A stretch of 64,000 nucleotides of DNA from Aeromicrobium chenweiae (GTDB taxonomy: Bacteria > Actinomycetota > Actinomycetes > Propionibacteriales > Nocardioidaceae), in contig NZ_CP026952.1 in NCBI RefSeq assembly GCF_003065605.1, positions 2,914,001-2,978,000 of the forward strand. The letters are read 5' to 3'. Positions 1,919 to 52,941 of this stretch are shown piece by piece (within the stretch, counting starts at the first letter, position 1; each line of letters begins with the position of its first letter). Below the pieces are notes generated by a model that saw nothing but the letters and a program-made list of their open reading frames with translations, had not been told where the DNA came from and searched no databases. The translations under genes were made by a program, and so were the position numbers.

Positions 1919-2797
1919 TCATACCCGCCTTGCGTGAGGTCGTCCGAAGATGCCCTGGGGGCGCAGCATCAGCACGGCCACGATGACCGCCACGGCCAGA
2001 GGCGTCTGGAGCTGGTTGCCCCATTCGTAGGTGACGTACATCAGCAGGACACCGAAGATGGGACCGGCGATGAGCGCGCCGGTGTTGTTGCCGAGTCCGC
2101 CGACGACGGCCACGATGAAGCCGAAGATCAGGTACTGGAGTGCGTTGGACTCGGAGATGCCGATGACCGAGGCACCGAGGAACCCGGTAAGTCCCAGCAC
2201 GACGCCGGCGATGGCGAACGAGAGGACCTGGAGCTGACGCGTCGCCGCGCCGGCCGCGCGCGCTGCCTCCAGATCTTGGGACAAGGCGCTCAGGGCCAGC
2301 CCGACAAGGAACGTCCTTTGGAACCATCGCAGGGCGAGATAGACGATCACGGTGAGCGCAATCAGGCCGAGATAGATGTACGGCACCTGGGTGCCGGCGA
2401 ACGAGAACGTCCCGAAGGGGTTCTTGACGCTCAGGGCATTCGGCCCCATCGACAGCGTCACCAGCGCACCCGTGATGATCGAGGCGGCCAGCGTCGTGAC
2501 GATCCACGAGTGCTGCTCCACCGACGACCGGAGCGGGAGGAGGGTGAGCAGACCTTGGAAGCCTGTCAGCACTGCCATGCCTGCCGCCACCGCCAACAGG
2601 CAGAGCAACCAGATCACGACTCCCCCGCCCTCGGGATACCACAGGAATGCCAGCACACCGGCCACCACGAGCAGGTGACCCTGCGCGAAGTTCAGGATCC
2701 CGCTGGCGTTGAAGATGACGTTCAAGCTCATCGCCAGCAGTGCGAAGACCGAACCTGATCCGATACCGCGAATCAGGATGATCGATAGTTCATCCAC
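1919..2797 (-). CDS. livH: LivH-type permease of a branched-chain amino acid-family ABC importer
   Basis: 292 residues of mostly hydrophobic sequence with the family opening (ALLAMSLNVIFNASGILNFA), typical of LivH, the partner permease of LivM. GTG start at 2797, preceded by a purine-rich ribosome site (GGAGGG). Its stop is one base before the livM-livG start. The gene lies directly after the binding-protein gene with a 29-base gap, so the order is binding protein, livH, livM-livG, livF in one operon. HAAT importers move branched-chain amino acids, amides, urea or aromatic and short-chain acids; the nearby tautomerase and FadR-type regulator make an organic acid or aromatic substrate as likely as an amino acid, but this is inference. 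Confidence 0.93.
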   Translation of the reverse strand: MDELSIILIRGIGSGSVFALLAMSLNVIFNASGILNFAQGHLLVVAGVLAFLWYPEGGGVVIWLLCLLAVAAGMAVLTGFQGLLTLLPLRSSVEQHSWIVTTLAASIITGALVTLSMGPNALSVKNPFGTFSFAGTQVPYIYLGLIALTVIVYLALRWFQRTFLVGLALSALSQDLEAARAAGAATRQLQVLSFAIAGVVLGLTGFLGASVIGISESNALQYLIFGFIVAVVGGLGNNTGALIAGPIFGVLLMYVTYEWGNQLQTPLAVAVIVAVLMLRPQGIFGRPHARRV

Positions 2798-2826
2798 GAG
2801 CTCACCCTCCTCCTCGTCCTAGATCC

Positions 2827-4053
2827 TCAGGAGCAATCGGCGCGCTGGAAGACGCTGTCCGAGACGCTCGTGCCGGGGTCGACGAGCGACAGGGAATCCG
2901 AGGTGAACAGGAAGTGCGTGTCCTTGGTCATGCCGAACGCCTGGTTCACGAGCGGGATGTCCTTGGGCAGGTTCGTGCCGTTCTCCTCGAGCCAGGCGGC
3001 GACCTTGGGTCCGTCCGTCGTACCGGTGGCCTCGATGGCAGCCTTGAAGAGATAGACCGCGTCGTGCGACTGAGCGATCGAGTCGAACGACGCGCCCTTG
3101 GCGCGCTTCTCGCTGAACGCCCGCACCGTCTTGACGAAGCTCGAGGTCGACTCAGGGACCTCCTCCTTCGTGCAGGCACTGAACGAGGAGAAGGTGATCG
3201 CGTTCATGTTCTCGTACGCGTCGTCACCCGCGATCTCCATCACGGTGTCCGCGAAGGTCGTGCCGTAGCTCCCGGTGAAGGGAACGTCCCAGTTGAGCTG
3301 CTTGACCTGCTCGAGGACTCGGGCGGTGTCGCTGCTGGCCACCGGGAAGAGCAGGACGTGGTCCGGGTTGCCCTTCTTGAGGCTGAGGAGCTGCGGTGTC
3401 ACGTCAGTGTTCTTGATCGACAGCTCTTGGGTGCCCGACAGCTTCAGGCCGCGCTTCTTGATGTCGGCCTTCATGGCATCAGCAGCGGTCTTGCCCTGCG
3501 TGCCACCGTCGCTGAGGATCGCAATGGACTTGGCACCGTCCTTCACGGCGGCATCCACCATCTCCTGCGCCTGCGTCGTGGCGTTCATCGTCCAGGAGAA
3601 GCTGTAAGGAGCAATGTCCGGCGTGACCTTCTCGGATCCTGCGCCCATGATCGAGGGGGTCTTGGTGCTCTTCAGCAGGGGCAGGGTCGCCAGGACCGGG
3701 TCGCTCGACAGGGGGCCGAGGACCAGATCAACCTTCTCCTGGTTGACCACGCGGTTCATCTCGGTGACGGCCTTCGTGGCGTCGAGCTCATCGTCGCCGT
3801 AGACAACCTTGACCTGGCGGCCGTCGATCCCGCCGTTGGCGTTGATCTCCTTGACGGCGATTTCGGTGCCGATCTTCGCCCAGTCGCCGTTGGCAGCCGC
3901 CGGCCCGGTCAGGGGGTAGACAGCGCCGATCTTGATCGGCCCCTTGTCGTCTCCGCCTGCGGCTGAGCCGCCGCCGCACGCCGCGAGGCTGAGGGCCAGG
4001 GCCGAGGCCGCACCAGCGATGGCGACGCTCCGACGCTTCGAGTTCATCGTCAT
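2827..4053 (-). CDS. Periplasmic-binding lipoprotein of the HAAT ABC importer (LivJ/LivK-like)
   Basis: 408 residues beginning with a signal peptide and lipobox (LAAC, Cys26), so the protein is membrane-anchored outside the cell. The body matches the type-1 periplasmic binding fold of leucine/branched-chain-binding proteins (GAVYPLTGPAAANGDWAKIG near residue 43-62). It is the first gene of the importer operon. ATG at 4053 has AAGGAA five bases upstream; a second ATG two codons later is less well placed. About 60 bases upstream lies an 11-base sequence shared with the tautomerase promoter, suggesting common control. The binding specificity cannot be read from the sequence; such proteins also bind amides, benzoate-type acids and urea. 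Confidence 0.93.
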   Translation of the reverse strand: MTMNSKRRSVAIAGAASALALSLAACGGGSAAGGDDKGPIKIGAVYPLTGPAAANGDWAKIGTEIAVKEINANGGIDGRQVKVVYGDDELDATKAVTEMNRVVNQEKVDLVLGPLSSDPVLATLPLLKSTKTPSIMGAGSEKVTPDIAPYSFSWTMNATTQAQEMVDAAVKDGAKSIAILSDGGTQGKTAADAMKADIKKRGLKLSGTQELSIKNTDVTPQLLSLKKGNPDHVLLFPVASSDTARVLEQVKQLNWDVPFTGSYGTTFADTVMEIAGDDAYENMNAITFSSFSACTKEEVPESTSSFVKTVRAFSEKRAKGASFDSIAQSHDAVYLFKAAIEATGTTDGPKVAAWLEENGTNLPKDIPLVNQAFGMTKDTHFLFTSDSLSLVDPGTSVSDSVFQRADCS

Positions 4054-4111
4054 TGAATTTCCTTCTGCTCACAGGATCGGCGCAGGGGGGATGCGCCGGA
4101 CATCACGAAGA

Positions 4112-4122
4112 AAAGGATAATC
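4112..4122 (-). promoter_or_regulatory. Shared 11-base promoter/operator motif upstream of the importer operon
   Basis: AAAGGATAATC occurs here, 59 bases before the start of the binding-protein gene, and again at 4482-4492, 62 bases before the tautomerase start. With flanking bases the match is AAAGGATAATCNNTCG. The common distance to both start codons suggests a promoter element or an operator for the GntR/FadR regulator at 4546-5274. Confidence 0.45.
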
Positions 4123-4131
4123 TCTCGATTC

Positions 4132-4142
4132 TTCATAATGAA
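4132..4142. promoter_or_regulatory. Small palindrome TTCAT-A-ATGAA, candidate operator
   Basis: A perfect 5-1-5 inverted repeat in the AT-rich upstream region of the importer operon, ten bases beyond the shared AAAGGATAATC motif. AT-rich palindromes of this size upstream of a catabolic importer are typical sites for FadR-type GntR regulators, but it could be chance in a short AT-rich patch. Confidence 0.3.
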
Positions 4143-4222
4143 TAGTCTCTATCTAGCGCGCGGGTGTGTCAAGCGCCACAGGACTGATCACTCGGCCGTG
4201 GTGGGCGAAACCGGCAGGAGGA

Positions 4223-4420
4223 CTACTGGCGCGGCGCGGTCTCGGCGACGAGGGTGCCGCCGATCGCCACGTTCTCAGCGCTCATCTCCTGCAGGTGAAC
4301 CTGCACGCTGGAGCGCGCGACGCCGAGCGAATCGACCGCCACGTCGGTCAGCGCGGCCGCCAAGGAGCGCTTCTGCTCGTACGACCTGCCCGCGAGCAGC
4401 TCCACCTTGATGATCGGCAT
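4223..4420 (-). CDS. 4-oxalocrotonate tautomerase-family protein
   Basis: 65 residues. The start is set at the ATG at 4420 because the next codon is proline: this family uses the amino-terminal proline, exposed by Met removal, as catalytic base, and PIIKVELLAGR matches the family N-terminus. An AGAGGG ribosome site lies upstream. Numbered from Pro1, Arg11 is present, but the position of the second 4-OT arginine (Arg39) is glutamine (SVQV), so the substrate may differ from 2-hydroxymuconate. Such enzymes act in meta-cleavage of aromatic compounds or as promiscuous tautomerases. It stands alone between the importer and the GntR regulator and shares an upstream motif with the importer, so it may belong to the same regulon. 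Confidence 0.85.
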   Translation of the reverse strand: MPIIKVELLAGRSYEQKRSLAAALTDVAVDSLGVARSSVQVHLQEMSAENVAIGGTLVAETAPRQ

Positions 4421-4481
4421 GGGGGCACCCTCTCGCGCAAAAGATGCCGCGGCATACGACATCGCCACCATTAGATCACAT

Positions 4482-4492
4482 AAAGGATAATC
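4482..4492 (-). promoter_or_regulatory. Second copy of the AAAGGATAATC motif, upstream of the tautomerase
   Basis: Same 11 bases and orientation as 4112-4122, 62 bases before the tautomerase start. A looser relative (TTAGGATCA on the minus strand, around 5320-5330) lies upstream of the GntR gene. Together these suggest one regulator controlling three transcripts. Confidence 0.45.
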
Positions 4493-4545
4493 ATTCGTGA
4501 CTTTTTGGCCCGGCTAGGGACGGGCCTGCCTGAGCCGACGTGGCG

Positions 4546-47013: not shown

Positions 47014-47658
47014 TCAGGGGTGGTCCGGGCCGGGCCGCACGGCCCGGTCCTCGAGGTGGAAGCCTTCTCGCGCCAGGGTGCCGACCCACTCGACCAGCAT
47101 GGCGCGCTCGCTCGTCTTGATCCGCTCGTGCAGGGAGCTCTCGTCGTCGCCGTCCAGCACGGGCACCGCGACCTGGGCCACGATCGGGCCGGTGTCGACG
47201 CCCTCGTCCACGACGAAGAGGGTCGCGCCGGTGACCTTGACGCCGTACGCGAGGGCGTCCCGCGGTCCGTGCATGCCGGGGAAGGACGGCGACAGCGCCG
47301 GGTGGGTGTTGAGCGTGCGTCCGCCGAACAGCGCCAGGAAGGCGGGCCCCGTGAGCTTCATGAACCCGGCGAGGACGACGAGGTCGGGGTCGTACGACGC
47401 GACCTTGTCGGCGAGTGCGACGTCCCAGGCCGGACGGTCCTCGAACTCCGACGTGCGGAGCACGAAGGTCTCGATGTCGTGGCGCTCGGCGCGGGCCAGG
47501 CCCTCGATGCCGTCGCGGTCGGCGCCGACCGCGACGATCGTCGCGCCGTACTCAGGATCCGTGGACGCCTCGATCAGCGCCTGCAGGTTCGTGCCGCTGC
47601 CAGACACGAGGACGACCAGTCTCGCTGGTGTCCGAGGGGCGGGAGGCACGGCCACCAC
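47014..47658 (-). CDS. purN: Phosphoribosylglycinamide formyltransferase
   Basis: 214 residues. Ribose-phosphate loop GSGTNLQAL near 20-28, folate site with the catalytic Asn-x-His ([12 protein letters not shown] near 105-116) and the Asp of DEGVDTGPI. Third step of purine synthesis. The start at 47658 lies 107 bases inside the upstream DUF6350 reading frame, an unusually long overlap. Alternative downstream starts would cut into the conserved beta strand. Confidence 0.95.
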
Positions 47659-48766
47659 GATAGTGGTTGAGCACCGCGCCGATCGCGCCGCCCACCGCCA
47701 TGACGGGCACGGCCACCAGCAACGGGGTCAGGAGCGGCGGTCCGGCGTCGGCCATCCGGCCCGGACCGATCGCGCCGCGCGACAGGGCGACCAGCACGCC
47801 GAGGGCGAATCCGGCCAGCGCGCCGGCGGCGCAGCCGAGCGCGAGCCGTGCCAGGACGCCCTCGCGCGTCCCGGGCACGAGCCGCCAGCCGCACAGGACG
47901 CCGGCGAGCAGCGGGACGAGGCCCAGCACGAAGACCCACTCGGGGAACTCCCCCGGCGACGGCAGGCCGGCCAGCAGCGGGAAGCCGGGCACCTGGCCCA
48001 GCTGCGCACCGGTGAGGTCCACCGAGGTGTCGGTCCCGAGCGCGAAGCCGGGACCGAGCAGGACCGAGGTCGTCCACAGGACGAGGGTCGGCACCGCGAG
48101 CAGGGAGCCCAGGCCGAGCACGATCCCGCCACCCGGTCCGGGGTCCAGCAGCGCCCACAGGTCCCCTCCGCGGGCGACGCCGCGGATCAGCAGCACCGCC
48201 ACGACCGCCGTCGCGCTGACCAGCACGGCCGCGACGCCGGGCACCGCGGCCCGGACGACGGCTCGGACGTCCTCGGACGACGTGAACCACCACCGCTCGG
48301 CGTCGCCGTGCCGGCGGATGGAGCCGATCGCGGCGCCCAGCCCGCCGACCACGAACGCCGCGACGGCCGCCCGCACGGAGGACACGTCGACCCCGCCGGC
48401 GTTCGTCACCGTCGCCGCCAGGCCCGCGATGACGCCGTACGCCCCCGCGGACGACGCAGCGAACGCCGCGAGGTCATGCAGCGGGTCGGACACGATCCAG
48501 CTGGCCACTCCCGCCACCACGGCGAGGCAGACGAGCGTCGCGCCCACCGGGACGAGACCGATGGAGACCGGGCCGGCGTCGATGCCCGATCCCATCGCGA
48601 CGAGCCAGGTCCGGACGCTCGCCCGGGCGACCGACGTCACGGACAGGTCGGACACGCCGCGGGCCAGCAGCACCAGCACGGCGGAGGCACCGATCGAGAC
48701 GAGGGCGGCGACAACGGCGGTCAGGAAGGCCGGCCGGAGGTAGGACGACTCAGCGGGCTCGGACAC
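47552..48766 (-). CDS. DUF6350 multi-spanning membrane protein (PerM-like)
   Basis: 404 residues with eleven or more hydrophobic segments and no enzymatic motif. It matches the DUF6350 family found beside purN-purH in actinobacteria; mycobacterial relatives (PerM) affect cell division under stress. GTG at 48766 (another GTG immediately before) is preferred to an upstream start because the hydrophobic domain begins just after it. The last about 35 codons overlap purN and are hydrophilic and poorly constrained. Divergent from the sigma-like fusion gene. Confidence 0.85.
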   Translation of the reverse strand: MSEPAESSYLRPAFLTAVVAALVSIGASAVLVLLARGVSDLSVTSVARASVRTWLVAMGSGIDAGPVSIGLVPVGATLVCLAVVAGVASWIVSDPLHDLAAFAASSAGAYGVIAGLAATVTNAGGVDVSSVRAAVAAFVVGGLGAAIGSIRRHGDAERWWFTSSEDVRAVVRAAVPGVAAVLVSATAVVAVLLIRGVARGGDLWALLDPGPGGGIVLGLGSLLAVPTLVLWTTSVLLGPGFALGTDTSVDLTGAQLGQVPGFPLLAGLPSPGEFPEWVFVLGLVPLLAGVLCGWRLVPGTREGVLARLALGCAAGALAGFALGVLVALSRGAIGPGRMADAGPPLLTPLLVAVPVMAVGGAIGAVLNHYRGGRASRPSDTSETGRPRVWQRHEPAGADRGVHGS

Positions 48767-48834
48767 CACTTCATCATCCCCTGTAAAGTTGGCGCGTCGC
48801 ACACAGGCACGCCGAACGCCGAAGGAGGCAGGAG

Positions 48835-50673
48835 ATGACCCGCGTCGACGAATTCGACAACTTCTACTCCTCGACCTTCGCCGAGGTGGTCCAGGTCACC
48901 TACGCCGTCTGCGGCGACCGACAGGTCGCGTACGAGGCGACTGTCGACGCGTACCGGCGGGCCTGGCGCGACTGGTCCAAGATCCGCGATCGCGACCCCA
49001 TCTCGTACGTCCGCACCGAGGCGTGGAAGCTCACGGCGCTCAGCCGCGGCACCCACCCGCTGCGCAAGCGCAACGAGGACGACAGCGACACCGCCCTGCT
49101 GACGGCGCTGCACAACCTCGCGGTCGACGACCGCCGCCTCATCGTCCTGATGACGCTGGGCAACACCGATCTCGAGGAGGCCTCCCGCGAGGTCGGCCTG
49201 CCCGCCGAGGAAGGCATCGAGAACGTCACGACGGCCCTCGCGGCGCTGGAGGAGGCCCTCGGCGAGGGCATCGACGCGATCGAGCGCCGCATGCACGGCC
49301 TGTCGGCGGCCACCGAGTCCCTGTCCGTCCCCTCCGCGACGGACGTCCGCAGCGCGGCCCGGCGCGGTCGCCGGCGCAACACCATCCTGCTCGTCGCCGC
49401 AGCGCTTGCCCTGATCGTCGGCGGCGGCTTCGTCGCGACCGACGGTGACGCCCTCGCGACCAGCGGCGAGCTGCCGACCCGCCAGAAGTTCGGCGACGAG
49501 ACCCCCGTCAAGCTCGACGCCCGCGAGGTGAGCGCCGACAACCTGCTGTCGGCCAAGCAGGTCAGCGCCCTCGACCCGGCCCGCACGTGGAAGGTCGAGA
49601 GCACCGACGAGGACGTCAAGAACACGACGCCCTACGCGACCTGTCCCACCAAGCGGTTCGCCGACCCGGACCCCGAGAAGGTCTTCGTCCGCACGTTCAC
49701 CGCCGCCGGCGCGACCACCGAGCGCGTCGCCCAGGCGATCGAGGTCTCCTCCAGCGAGAAGGTGGCCACGGCCTCGTACCGGCGGCTCGTGCAGTGGTAC
49801 GCCGACTGCGAGCACCCCCGCGTCGAGCTCGTGGCGGCCTACACGGTCAAGCGTCCCTTCGGCGACTTCCAGATCCTCAAGCTGCGCTCGCACCGTGAGC
49901 CGCAGCGCACGTTCACCGTCGGGTTCAGCCACTCCGGCACGATCACCAGCACGCTCGTGCACGAGGTGGACGGCGTCAAGGGCCCCAGCATCGAGACGTT
50001 CGCCCGTACGCTCAACGACTCGGTCGCGAAGGTCTGCAAGGACAGCGGCGGCGAGTGCTCCCAGTCGATCCAGGTCATGCGCACCGATCCCCCTGCGACG
50101 TCCGAGGCCCCGTCGTTCCTCGGCATCGTCGACCTGCCGCCCATCGCCGACATCGACAAGGTCTGGGCCGCGGCCCGCGTGGACCCGCGCAACAACCCGG
50201 CGGCCACCCTGTGCGACAAGGCCGACTTCACCCGCAAGGGCGTCAGGGCGGCCGACTCGCGCATCTACGTGCTCTACCAGGCCGACAACCTGCCCAAGGA
50301 GTTCGGCGTCGCCGAGACCGTGGCGCAGTTCCGCTCGGGCGGACAGGCCAAGGCGTTCGTGAGGACCGTCGAGAAGCGCATCAGGTCGTGCGACGACAAG
50401 ATCCTGTCCGCGCGCACCAAGCAGGACGCCGTGATCAACAACCCGGCCTTCTCCGGACGCGCCTGGCGGGTCAGCTTCGAGATCTCCGACAAGAGCAAGA
50501 AGCGGGTCTACTACCGCACGGCCATCATCCGTCGCGGCAAGTACGTCGCCCAGGTGACGTTCACCCCGGCCGGTGCGTACGACATCACCAAGCGCGAGTT
50601 CATCCAGATCGCCACCCGGGCCGGGACGCGCCTCAAGTACGCCGAGCCGACGCAGACCACCCCCACCCCCTGA
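48835..50673 (+). CDS. ECF-sigma-like/transmembrane/sensor fusion protein
   Basis: 612 residues in three parts. Residues about 5-140 resemble an ECF sigma factor of the SigE-like actinobacterial type: a region-2-like block (FDNFYSSTFAEVVQVTYAVC, then AYRRAWRDW) and a region-4-like block (LHNLAVDDRRLIVLMTLGNT then EEASREVGLPAEEGIEN). A basic patch (RRGRRR) precedes one transmembrane helix at about 183-203. The remaining 400 residues are outside the membrane and appear to contain two repeated modules, each with a pair of cysteines, reminiscent of the PknH extracellular sensor. Some sigma core residues look eroded, so it may instead be a sigma-derived signalling or DNA-binding protein. ATG at 48835 with GGAGG upstream. 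Monocistronic, between DUF6350 and sucCD. Confidence 0.7.
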   Translation: MTRVDEFDNFYSSTFAEVVQVTYAVCGDRQVAYEATVDAYRRAWRDWSKIRDRDPISYVRTEAWKLTALSRGTHPLRKRNEDDSDTALLTALHNLAVDDRRLIVLMTLGNTDLEEASREVGLPAEEGIENVTTALAALEEALGEGIDAIERRMHGLSAATESLSVPSATDVRSAARRGRRRNTILLVAAALALIVGGGFVATDGDALATSGELPTRQKFGDETPVKLDAREVSADNLLSAKQVSALDPARTWKVESTDEDVKNTTPYATCPTKRFADPDPEKVFVRTFTAAGATTERVAQAIEVSSSEKVATASYRRLVQWYADCEHPRVELVAAYTVKRPFGDFQILKLRSHREPQRTFTVGFSHSGTITSTLVHEVDGVKGPSIETFARTLNDSVAKVCKDSGGECSQSIQVMRTDPPATSEAPSFLGIVDLPPIADIDKVWAAARVDPRNNPAATLCDKADFTRKGVRAADSRIYVLYQADNLPKEFGVAETVAQFRSGGQAKAFVRTVEKRIRSCDDKILSARTKQDAVINNPAFSGRAWRVSFEISDKSKKRVYYRTAIIRRGKYVAQVTFTPAGAYDITKREFIQIATRAGTRLKYAEPTQTTPTP

Positions 50674-50778: not shown

Positions 50779-51675
50779 CTACAGACCCTTGAGGATCTCC
50801 CGCATGAGGTCAGCGGTCTCGGACGGCGTCTTGCCGACCTTGACGCCGGCAGCCTCGAGGGCTTCCTTCTTGCCCTGTGCGGTGCCCGCACCGTCGGACA
50901 CGATGGCGCCGGCGTGGCCCATCGTCTTGCCCTCGGGGGCGGTGAAGCCGGCCACGTAGCCGACGACCGGCTTGGTGACGTGGGCCTTGATGTAGGCCGC
51001 GGCCTTCTCCTCGGCGTCTCCACCGATCTCGCCGATCATCACGATCGCCTTGGTCTCGGGGTCGGCCTCGAACGCCTCGAGGGCGTCGATGTGCGTCGTG
51101 CCGATGATCGGGTCGCCGCCGATGCCGATGGCGGTCGAGAAGCCGAAGTCGCGCAGCTCGAACATCATCTGGTAGGTCAGCGTGCCCGACTTGGAGACGA
51201 GACCGATCGGACCCGAGCCGGCGATGTTCGCCGGCGTGATGCCCGCGAGCGCCTCGCCCGGCGTGATGATGCCGGGGCAGTTCGGGCCGATGATGCGCGT
51301 CTTCTTGCCCTGGGCGTACGCCCAGAACTCGGCGCTGTCCTGGACCGGCACGCCCTCGGTGATGATGACCAGCAGGCCGATCTCGGCGTCGATGGCCTCG
51401 ATGACGGCGTCCTTGGTGAACGCCGGCGGGACGAAGGCGACCGACACGTCGGCGCCCGTCTTCTCGATGGCCTCGGCGACCGAGCCGAACACGGGGAGCT
51501 CGACGGTGTTGCCGTCGGCGTCCTTGTGCTCGACCGTCGTGCCGGCCTTGCGTGCGTTGACGCCACCGACGACATCCGTGCCGGCTGCGAGCATGCGGGC
51601 GGTGTGCTTGGAGCCCTCGCCGCCGGTGATGCCCTGGACGATGACCTTGGAGTCCTTGGTCAGAAAGATTGCCAT
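50779..51675 (-). CDS. sucD: Succinate-CoA ligase alpha subunit
   Basis: 298 residues. CoA-binding Rossmann domain at the N-terminus ([15 protein letters not shown] near 15-29) and the phosphohistidine in GHAGAIV near 250-256. With SucC converts succinyl-CoA to succinate with nucleotide triphosphate formation. ATG at 51675, nine bases after sucC. Confidence 0.97.
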
Positions 51676-51684
51676 GTCTGCCCC

Positions 51685-52851
51685 TTAGCCGTTCGCCAGT
51701 TCGGCGGCCTTGTCGGCCGCGCCGTCCATCGTGTCCACCTGGGTGACGAGCGGGTGGTTGAGCTCGTTGAGGATCGCACGACCCTCCTCGACGTTGTTGC
51801 CGTCGAGGCGGACGACCAGCGGCTTGGAGGCCTCGTCACCGAGGAGCTCGAGAGCGCCCTTGATGCCGTTGGCGACCGCGTCGCAGGACGTGATGCCGCC
51901 GAAGACGTTCACGAACACGCTCTTGACCTGCGGGTCGTTCAGGATGACGTCCAGGCCGTTGGCCATGACCTCGGCCGACGCTCCTCCGCCGATGTCCAGG
52001 AAGTTCGCGGGCTTGACGTTGCCGTGCTTCTCACCGGCGTACGCGACGACGTCGAGGGTGCTCATGACGAGTCCCGCGCCGTTGCCGATGATGCCGACCT
52101 CACCGTCGAGCTTCACGTAGTTGAGGCCCTTCGCCTTGGCCTTCGCCTCGAGCGGATCGGCTTCCTCGTGGATGACGAATTCCTCGTGCTCGGGGTGACG
52201 CACCTCGGAGGCGTTCTCGTCCAGCGAGACCTTGCCGTCGAGCGCCTCGAGCTTGTCGCCCTCGAGACGGGCGAGCGGGTTGACCTCGACGAGCGTGGCG
52301 TCCTCCTCCACGAAGACCTTCCACAGCGCCTGGACCATGGCCACGGCCTGGTCGGCGAGCTCGGCGGGGAACTTGGCCTCCTCGACGATCGCGCGGGCCT
52401 TGGCCTCGTCGACACCGGTGCCGGCGTCGATCGGGATCTGGCGCACGGCCTCGGGGTTGGTCTTGGCGACCTCCTCGATCTCCACACCACCCTCGACGCT
52501 AGCGATGCAGAGGTAGCTGCGGTTCGAGCGGTCCAGCAGGAAGGAGAAGTAGTACTCCTCGACCGGCGGGGTCGCGGGCGTGACGAGCACACGGTTGACC
52601 GTGAGGCCCTTGATCTCCATGCCCAGGATGTTGGAGGCGTGCTCGAAGGCGTCCTCGGGGGTCTTGGCGATCTTGACGCCGCCTGCCTTGCCGCGGCCTC
52701 CGGCCTTGACCTGAGCCTTGATGACGGTGACGCCACCCATCTGCTCAGCTGCGTTCTTGGCCTCGTCGGCGGTCTGGACGACAACGCCGAGCGTCGTCGC
52801 GACCCCATGCTTGGCGAAGAGCTCCTTCGCCTGGTATTCCATCAAATCCAC
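51685..52851 (-). CDS. sucC: Succinate-CoA ligase beta subunit
   Basis: 388 residues, ATP-grasp fold. [14 protein letters not shown] opens the domain; the GTG at 52851 adds VDL before it, as in other actinobacterial SucC proteins. ATP-grasp loop [18 protein letters not shown] near 43-60. Cotranscribed with sucD and possibly with the small gene upstream. Confidence 0.96.
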
Positions 52852-52941
52852 GGTGTGTTCCGTCCTCAGTTGGAAGTTCCGCTGCACTCGCGGTCGGCCG
52901 AAGGCCGCCACAAATGAGCCTGTGCGACTCTAGCCGTTAAC

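Follow-up and report, generated by a model that had tools for sequence, protein, structure and literature searches.

A candidate transmembrane sigma mimic with a double PknH-like ectodomain, encoded between a DUF6350 gene and sucD in Aeromicrobium chenweiae

A 64,000-nucleotide stretch of the Aeromicrobium chenweiae genome (contig NZ_CP026952.1, forward-strand positions 2,914,001–2,978,000; hereafter the window) carries a genuine open reading frame (ORF) with an ATG start, present as a single copy in the 3.72-Mb genome, whose 612-residue product joins a sigma-factor-like domain to a double PknH-like sensor (Table 1). The gene and its product are called FUS here. The sigma-like part is predicted to lie inside and the sensor modules outside, with one transmembrane (TM) helix between them. 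Since residues conserved in the polymerase- and −35-binding regions are lost, FUS would work as a mimic and not as a sigma factor, and we put the probability at roughly 0.45 that it is a transmembrane sigma mimic, which does not read promoters but signals through the binding or release of another protein. An outside ligand would likely change the ectodomain, and the inside pseudo-sigma domain would likely relay this change through such binding or release. The domain order, the residue losses relative to an intact neighbour, the constraint, the synteny and the likeness of residues 145–187 to the tail of a membrane partner were read from sequence comparison, and the sigma fold and its compact lobes, like the topology, are predicted.

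The residue losses were counted in 120 Aeromicrobium and 63 Nocardioides fused proteins (183 Nocardioidaceae rows), 45 free neighbours and 120 Streptomyces proteins. In many Nocardioides genomes, an intact SigE-family sigma factor is encoded beside FUS and serves as a built-in control, which makes the claim directly testable. The region-2.2 Gln, which sits in the core-binding region and has a role in core binding according to sigma70 work, was kept in 45/45 free Nocardioides SigE proteins and in none of the fused ones (0/63 Nocardioides, 0/120 Aeromicrobium); the segment reads EATVD in the window protein versus E/D-C-V/T-QE in the free SigE of the locus. The first Lys/Arg of the recognition helix showed the same distribution (45/45 versus 0/63 and 0/120), and the next Arg was kept in 45/45 free proteins versus 0/63 and 2/120 fused ones. 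In the fused proteins, the −35 recognition helix has a negative or zero net charge, with means of −1.52 in Nocardioides and −2.83 in Aeromicrobium, compared with +3.07 in free SigE. Eight other extracytoplasmic function (ECF)-like proteins of the same genome have helix charges of +2 to +4, but only three of them carry the helix Lys and five the region-2.2 Gln. Single positions are therefore not decisive alone, and the weight was placed on the helix charge and on the next-door free SigE.

The initial annotation, a reading of the sequence and its translated ORFs, had described a sigma-like N-terminus, a basic patch with one TM helix at about residues 183–203, and two outside PknH-like modules, each with a cysteine pair, and this outline stood up. 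Although the Pfam scan of the window protein returned no sigma family, the SigE-family profile TIGR02983 matched it at E 8.3e-9. The score of 35.5 bits is far below the cut-off of 141.55, which the free SigE of locus L045 exceeds with 150.7 bits; on this cut-off and the lost contacts, an ordinary SigE sigma factor was rejected. AlphaFold predicted an ECF sigma2/sigma4 fold for residues 1–180 from an alignment of 35 fused proteins (predicted local distance difference test score 89.8), with the two lobes closed and compact and not spread as on polymerase. A PDB sequence search found nothing at E ≤ 10 for the full-length protein and, for residues 1–172, one enoyl-CoA hydratase at E 1.2, which we attribute to chance; thus, the evidence for the sigma fold comes from the profile match and the predicted structure. 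Pfam matches in the window protein were likewise absent for receiver and zinc-finger domains, with the limit for the latter that HMMER drops most weak matches; residues 1–204 contain a single cysteine. The basic patch and the hydrophobic stretch are visible in the sequence, and at least one TM-like segment was found in 120/120 Aeromicrobium and 60/63 Nocardioides rows by a hydropathy test that disregards segment position.

The ectodomain is predicted to consist of two copies of one layout, beta-beta-beta-alpha-beta4-alpha, and its model matched the PknH ectodomain 4esq with probability 1.00 and a TM-score of 0.62 by target. PF14032 matched the window protein at residues 484–577 (E 3.6e-4, 20.9 bits, gathering cut-off 27), and two of seven relatives, P0042 (29.8) and P0086 (27.3), passed the cut-off, the other five scoring below it. 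Beside the pairs 270/325 and 460/519, Cys 401 and 408, unlisted in the initial annotation, are present, and all six were invariant in 38/38 aligned rows, which include three sensors that lack a sigma domain. A kinase link of the PknH-like domain was rejected, as the window protein has no kinase match.

A free SigE gene was found downstream of the fused gene at 12 of the 29 family loci read besides the window (at one of them fused to its partner) and at 42/56 loci of the named Nocardioides scan; the two sets share some genomes and are not independent. The SigE gene and the next ORF overlap by 8 nt in 40/44 loci. In free partners, a TM helix follows an N-terminal tail about 45 residues long, whose approximate pattern is D-x-LxxxL-xx-L ... 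P ... VRRRGxRxRR. A hidden Markov model (HMM) of 16 such tails matched the fused proteins near residues 145–187, directly before the TM helix, in 23 of 37 cases at an independent E-value ≤ 0.1 (window protein, 1.7e-4), and in larger sets in 103/120 Aeromicrobium and 34/63 Nocardioides proteins. L101 carries, close to its fused pseudo-sigma gene, a gene (2585-4495, minus strand) for a 636-aa protein that joins an intact SigE-family sigma factor in frame to its membrane partner. Considering the tail likeness, the 8-nt overlap and this intact fusion, the simplest history of FUS is likely that a sigma factor and its own membrane partner became fused end to end. The initial annotation had stated that no anti-sigma gene lies nearby; indeed, none was seen adjoining FUS in the window, but that statement misses the segment at 145–187.

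Partner tails would be anti-sigma segments that hold SigE, and FUS would combine a tail of this kind with a sigma-shaped domain in a single chain, predicted in a closed state. In Nocardioides, the pseudo-sigma domain may compete with the next-door SigE for the partner tail as a partner switch: governed by the ectodomain, FUS would present its sigma surface to the partner tail and so release SigE, or would itself hold the tail. In Aeromicrobium, where the locus lacks the free pair, a sigma or anti-sigma factor encoded elsewhere would be the target. A wider proposal, which we make tentatively, is that FUS represents a new class of one-protein receptor with pseudo-sigma output. Of two sigma/partner modules in tandem next to a perM-like gene, one would have become fused, its sigma half would have given up promoters and switched partners with the intact neighbour, which it later outlived, and a helix-turn-helix (HTH) protein would be its cousin in Streptomyces.

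Several observations weigh against the mimic and the switch. In Aeromicrobium, no free SigE pair occurs at the locus (in 9/9 genomes, no more than about 206 bp separate FUS from sucD), and 14/56 Nocardioides loci also lack a free SigE downstream, so the pseudo-sigma domain cannot depend on SigE there. The tail HMM missed 14 of the 37 fused proteins in register at the 0.1 threshold and all 120 Streptomyces proteins; its match is short, basic and partly low-complexity, and an unrelated protein in L082 scored 1.6e-5. The basic half of the motif is therefore a weak witness, and the argument depends on the register and on the leading helix. None of seven scanned partners matched an anti-sigma family at E ≤ 1, and the NCBIfam 'antisigma' match of the window protein is weak (E 0.0053). 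For the N-terminal domain, the best Foldseek E-value was 1.1e-3, and the compact lobe arrangement may be a modelling default. Part of the sigma surface is retained as well. Among the core-binding residues, on whose loss in orthologues the initial annotation had staked its sigma assignment, the Gln is gone, but the adjoining acid is D/E in 119/120 Aeromicrobium and 58/63 Nocardioides rows. SigL Trp68 stacks on the −11 base (PMC6372665), and the position aligned to it is aromatic (W/Y) in 118/120 Aeromicrobium and at least 39/63 Nocardioides rows. With the acid and the −11 aromatic retained, region 2 may contact DNA or polymerase.

These retained residues bear on two other explanations. In the first, FUS is a true tethered sigma factor, from which membrane proteolysis frees residues 1–180 for transcription with an unusual promoter preference. 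Its architecture is that of fused sigma-membrane proteins as described in PMC8999054 and PMC5826349, the predicted fold is intact, the −11 aromatic is present in most Aeromicrobium rows, and an Arg is aligned to R60 of the window protein in 47/47 fused rows and to R77 in 21/21 Aeromicrobium rows. We nevertheless consider it unlikely, because the Gln and the recognition-helix Lys/Arg are gone in 183/183 Nocardioidaceae rows and the helix charge is zero or negative, unlike in the eight other ECF-like proteins; the working tethered sigma of the initial annotation is thereby disfavoured. In the second, the pseudo-sigma domain acts as a polymerase trap: it does not recognise promoters but captures core polymerase or its flap, so that transcription close to the membrane is damped. 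The predicted sigma fold, the missing basic −35 helix and the mostly retained acid agree with this, but the lost Gln belongs to the core-binding region and the modelled lobes are closed, unlike those spread on polymerase, so we regard a trap as very unlikely.

Sigma mimicry as proposed for FUS is best known from PhyR, the alphaproteobacterial anti-anti-sigma factor. The N-terminal domain of FUS is predicted to be similar in fold to a PhyR-type mimic, but PhyR, a response regulator with a receiver domain, is soluble, whereas FUS is membrane-tethered and SigE-like, with an ectodomain and without a receiver match. The PknH ectodomain (PF14032) shares its predicted fold with the FUS modules, but the kinase PknH has a single domain of this type, compared with two on a pseudo-sigma in FUS. 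Members of ECF48, ECF52 and ECF53 (e.g., SCO4117) have the sigma domain inside, one or more TM helices and an outside or C-terminal extension, and IutY (ECF243) of Pseudomonas putida is a sigma factor fused to its membrane anti-sigma (PMC8999054, PMC5826349; the latter protein in PMC8999054). Hence, the 'undescribed system' of the initial annotation does not extend to membrane-fused sigma factors as such. Like the ECF48/52/53 proteins, FUS has its TM helix C-terminal to the sigma domain; unlike them, as far as the consulted sections of these papers go, it has no zinc-finger match, its ectodomain is PknH-like and not carbohydrate-binding, and it has lost sigma contacts, theirs being taken as working. 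Proteolytic release has been proposed for ECF52/53 and shown for IutY, whose sigma factor is active after proteolysis in siderophore signalling, with no PknH-like domain mentioned in the consulted part of PMC8999054. Searches of the open-licence literature, which leaves out most subscription papers, turned up no membrane-tethered pseudo-sigma with PknH-like sensors. Membrane-fused ECFs and sigma mimics are thus already known, and their combination in FUS is apparently new. If the mimic proves true, transmembrane signalling by sigma imitation would be a third arrangement beside PhyR and the membrane-fused ECFs, whose release as working sigma factors is presumed.

FUS is not a product of chance. 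Relatives at E ≤ 0.001 numbered 309 proteins including that of the window, the close ones with names belonging to Aeromicrobium (A. stalagmiti, 80%). At the order level, 131/147 genomes matched, the 16 without a match all falling in one other family (f2); the family of the window matched in 52/52 sampled genomes, some only as split or partial stretches (e.g., G097, G118, G140) and not all read individually. A chance or misread fusion was rejected on these 52 genomes. At the class level, 127/296 genomes matched, and among the matches listed full-length ones occurred only in the window's own family. Five versions of the protein from the largest sister genus, used as queries in a contig scan, yielded 65 loci, from Nocardioides or Pimelobacter, with three metagenome bins under higher-rank names; two loci without an ORF and seven partial ones were left out of the 42/56 count, and 63 rows entered the residue counts. 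The ratio of nonsynonymous to synonymous substitution (Nei-Gojobori counts, eight hand-picked Aeromicrobium pairs, some sharing a genome) was lower in the sigma-like domain than in both sensor modules in 8/8 pairs and the lowest of four segments in 7/8. Mean column entropy in 120 listed proteins, averaged over 20-residue blocks, was about 0.49 bits at residues 1–140 versus about 1.0 over 221–600, though single ectodomain blocks, e.g., 361–380, are as strongly conserved as the sigma-like domain. Since the sigma-like domain is under stronger constraint than the sensors, a decaying pseudogene domain was rejected.

Table 1. Positions of FUS, its parts and its neighbours in the window.
Feature	Position	Strand	Basis
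CDS, fused pseudo-sigma / membrane sensor (FUS)	48835..50673	+	ORF, relatives
Sigma region 2-like lobe, residues 1–78	48835..49068	+	alignment, model
Sigma region 4-like lobe, residues 85–142, acidic recognition helix in PAEEGIENVTTALAALEE	49087..49260	+	alignment, model
Juxtamembrane tail, residues 143–182, like the cytoplasmic tail of the membrane partner of free SigE	49261..49380	+	tail HMM
Predicted TM helix, residues 183–203, inner side basic	49381..49443	+	sequence; hydropathy of relatives
PknH_C-like module 1, about residues 232–405, Cys 270, 325, 401; 408 just beyond	49528..50049	+	alignment, model, 4esq
PknH_C-like module 2, about residues 440–604, Cys 460/519	50152..50646	+	Pfam, alignment, model, 4esq
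DUF6350 membrane-protein gene, divergent, PerM-like by position	47552..48802	-	ORF, family scan
purN, synteny anchor	47014..47658	-	
sucD, convergent neighbour, synteny anchor	50779..51675	-	
sucC	51685..52911	-	
Conserved CGGCGTG (CACGCCG on +), divergent gap	48808..48814	-	

The sucCD genes and the DUF6350 gene adjoin FUS as the initial annotation had said; 'PerM-like' is a label which we assume for the DUF6350 neighbour from its position. Genes were called with our own script, trained on five window genes, which missed the DUF6350 gene of the window and set the fused start of L031 too early; L118-L123 lie wholly or partly outside the locus reading, and L050 was left out. Of the 29 family loci, 28 have sucD downstream and convergent (none is shown in L101, where sucCD is outside the stretch read) and 28 have a called divergent DUF6350 gene (in L031 the gap is present and no gene was called). 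This pairing would suit an envelope growth or division scaffold with the DUF6350/PerM-like protein, in which the sigma fold is re-used for binding and has no link to transcription. Kribbella-like and Propionibacteriaceae-like loci with a TM helix and double ectodomain but no sigma domain point the same way, as does mycobacterial Rv0954, encoded in the same operon as perM and reported as a division-complex protein (PMC8093794). The scaffold rests on gene neighbourhood, however, homology of Rv0954 to FUS is not established, and the strong constraint on the sigma-like domain and the free SigE at 42/56 Nocardioides loci point to sigma biology, making a scaffold improbable. As a candidate sigma mimic, FUS would place a so far unstudied regulator next to a PerM-like gene both in Nocardioidaceae and in Streptomyces.

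An ECF-type promoter for FUS was sought by eye in the divergent gap, where CACGCCG was the only conserved element. It occurred, near copies included, in 33/37 Nocardioidaceae loci, compared with a mean of 2.6 and a maximum of 8 of 37 in 200 first-order Markov shuffles. In most rows it is preceded, by about 35 nt, by a CATC block, which on visual inspection is the opposite-strand start region of DUF6350. As CACGCCG keeps its distance to the DUF6350 side and not to FUS, it is probably a 5′ element of the DUF6350 gene.

Outside the family, many of the listed loci have no sigma-like gene at this place. A free intact SigE-family sigma gene followed by a membrane partner gene, in the same place and direction, was found in two genomes of family f4 and in other families of the class (L045, L046, L092-L094, L096, L098, L138-L140). 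The same holds for L089, where the contig ends before sucD; no DUF6350 gene was called in L093, and L097 has a partner without a called sigma gene. This two-gene form, probably the ancestral kind, shares place, orientation and halves with FUS, but its sigma residues are intact (45/45 in Nocardioides) and its partner ectodomains vary. Two tandem SigE and partner modules occur in L089, L094 and L138. The SigE nearer to DUF6350 has partly degenerated in L089 and L094 (e.g., Glu in place of the helix Lys), as if becoming a pseudo-sigma; in L138 both look intact. A TM helix and ectodomain without a sigma domain were seen at four Kribbella-like and seven f2 loci, Kribbella-like and Propionibacteriaceae-like being guessed labels; with the double PknH-like ectodomain in L035-L044 and L049, the sensor half can stand alone.

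In Streptomyces, the corresponding position encodes, in the same orientation, a protein with an XRE-type HTH and a sigma-like part (L082-L088 and L134-L137, 11 loci in all). It had 3161 relatives at E ≤ 1e-5, the listed names being mostly 'helix-turn-helix domain-containing protein'. Like FUS it has lost the region-2.2 Gln (0/120) and the helix Lys (0/120), but it keeps the Arg (120/120) and a basic helix (+1.90), carries the extra HTH at its N-terminus and has no ectodomain; a TM segment was found in 35/120 by a strict hydropathy test. We do not claim it as a full pseudo-sigma, given that charge and the fact that L082 passes Pfam Sigma70_r4_2. In a tree of 84 sigma and sigma-like domains, the Aeromicrobium, Nocardioides-group and Streptomyces domains lie on one side of a branch (99/97), with the free locus SigE and the eight other ECF-like proteins apart. 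Since branches are long and 29/81 inner branches are open, a single origin of the fused domains is possible but not established, and long-branch attraction could explain the 99/97. At three loci (L142, L144, L151), the fused gene shares a few bases at its stop with an overlapping ORF of 388-416 aa, which looks kynureninase-like on visual inspection.
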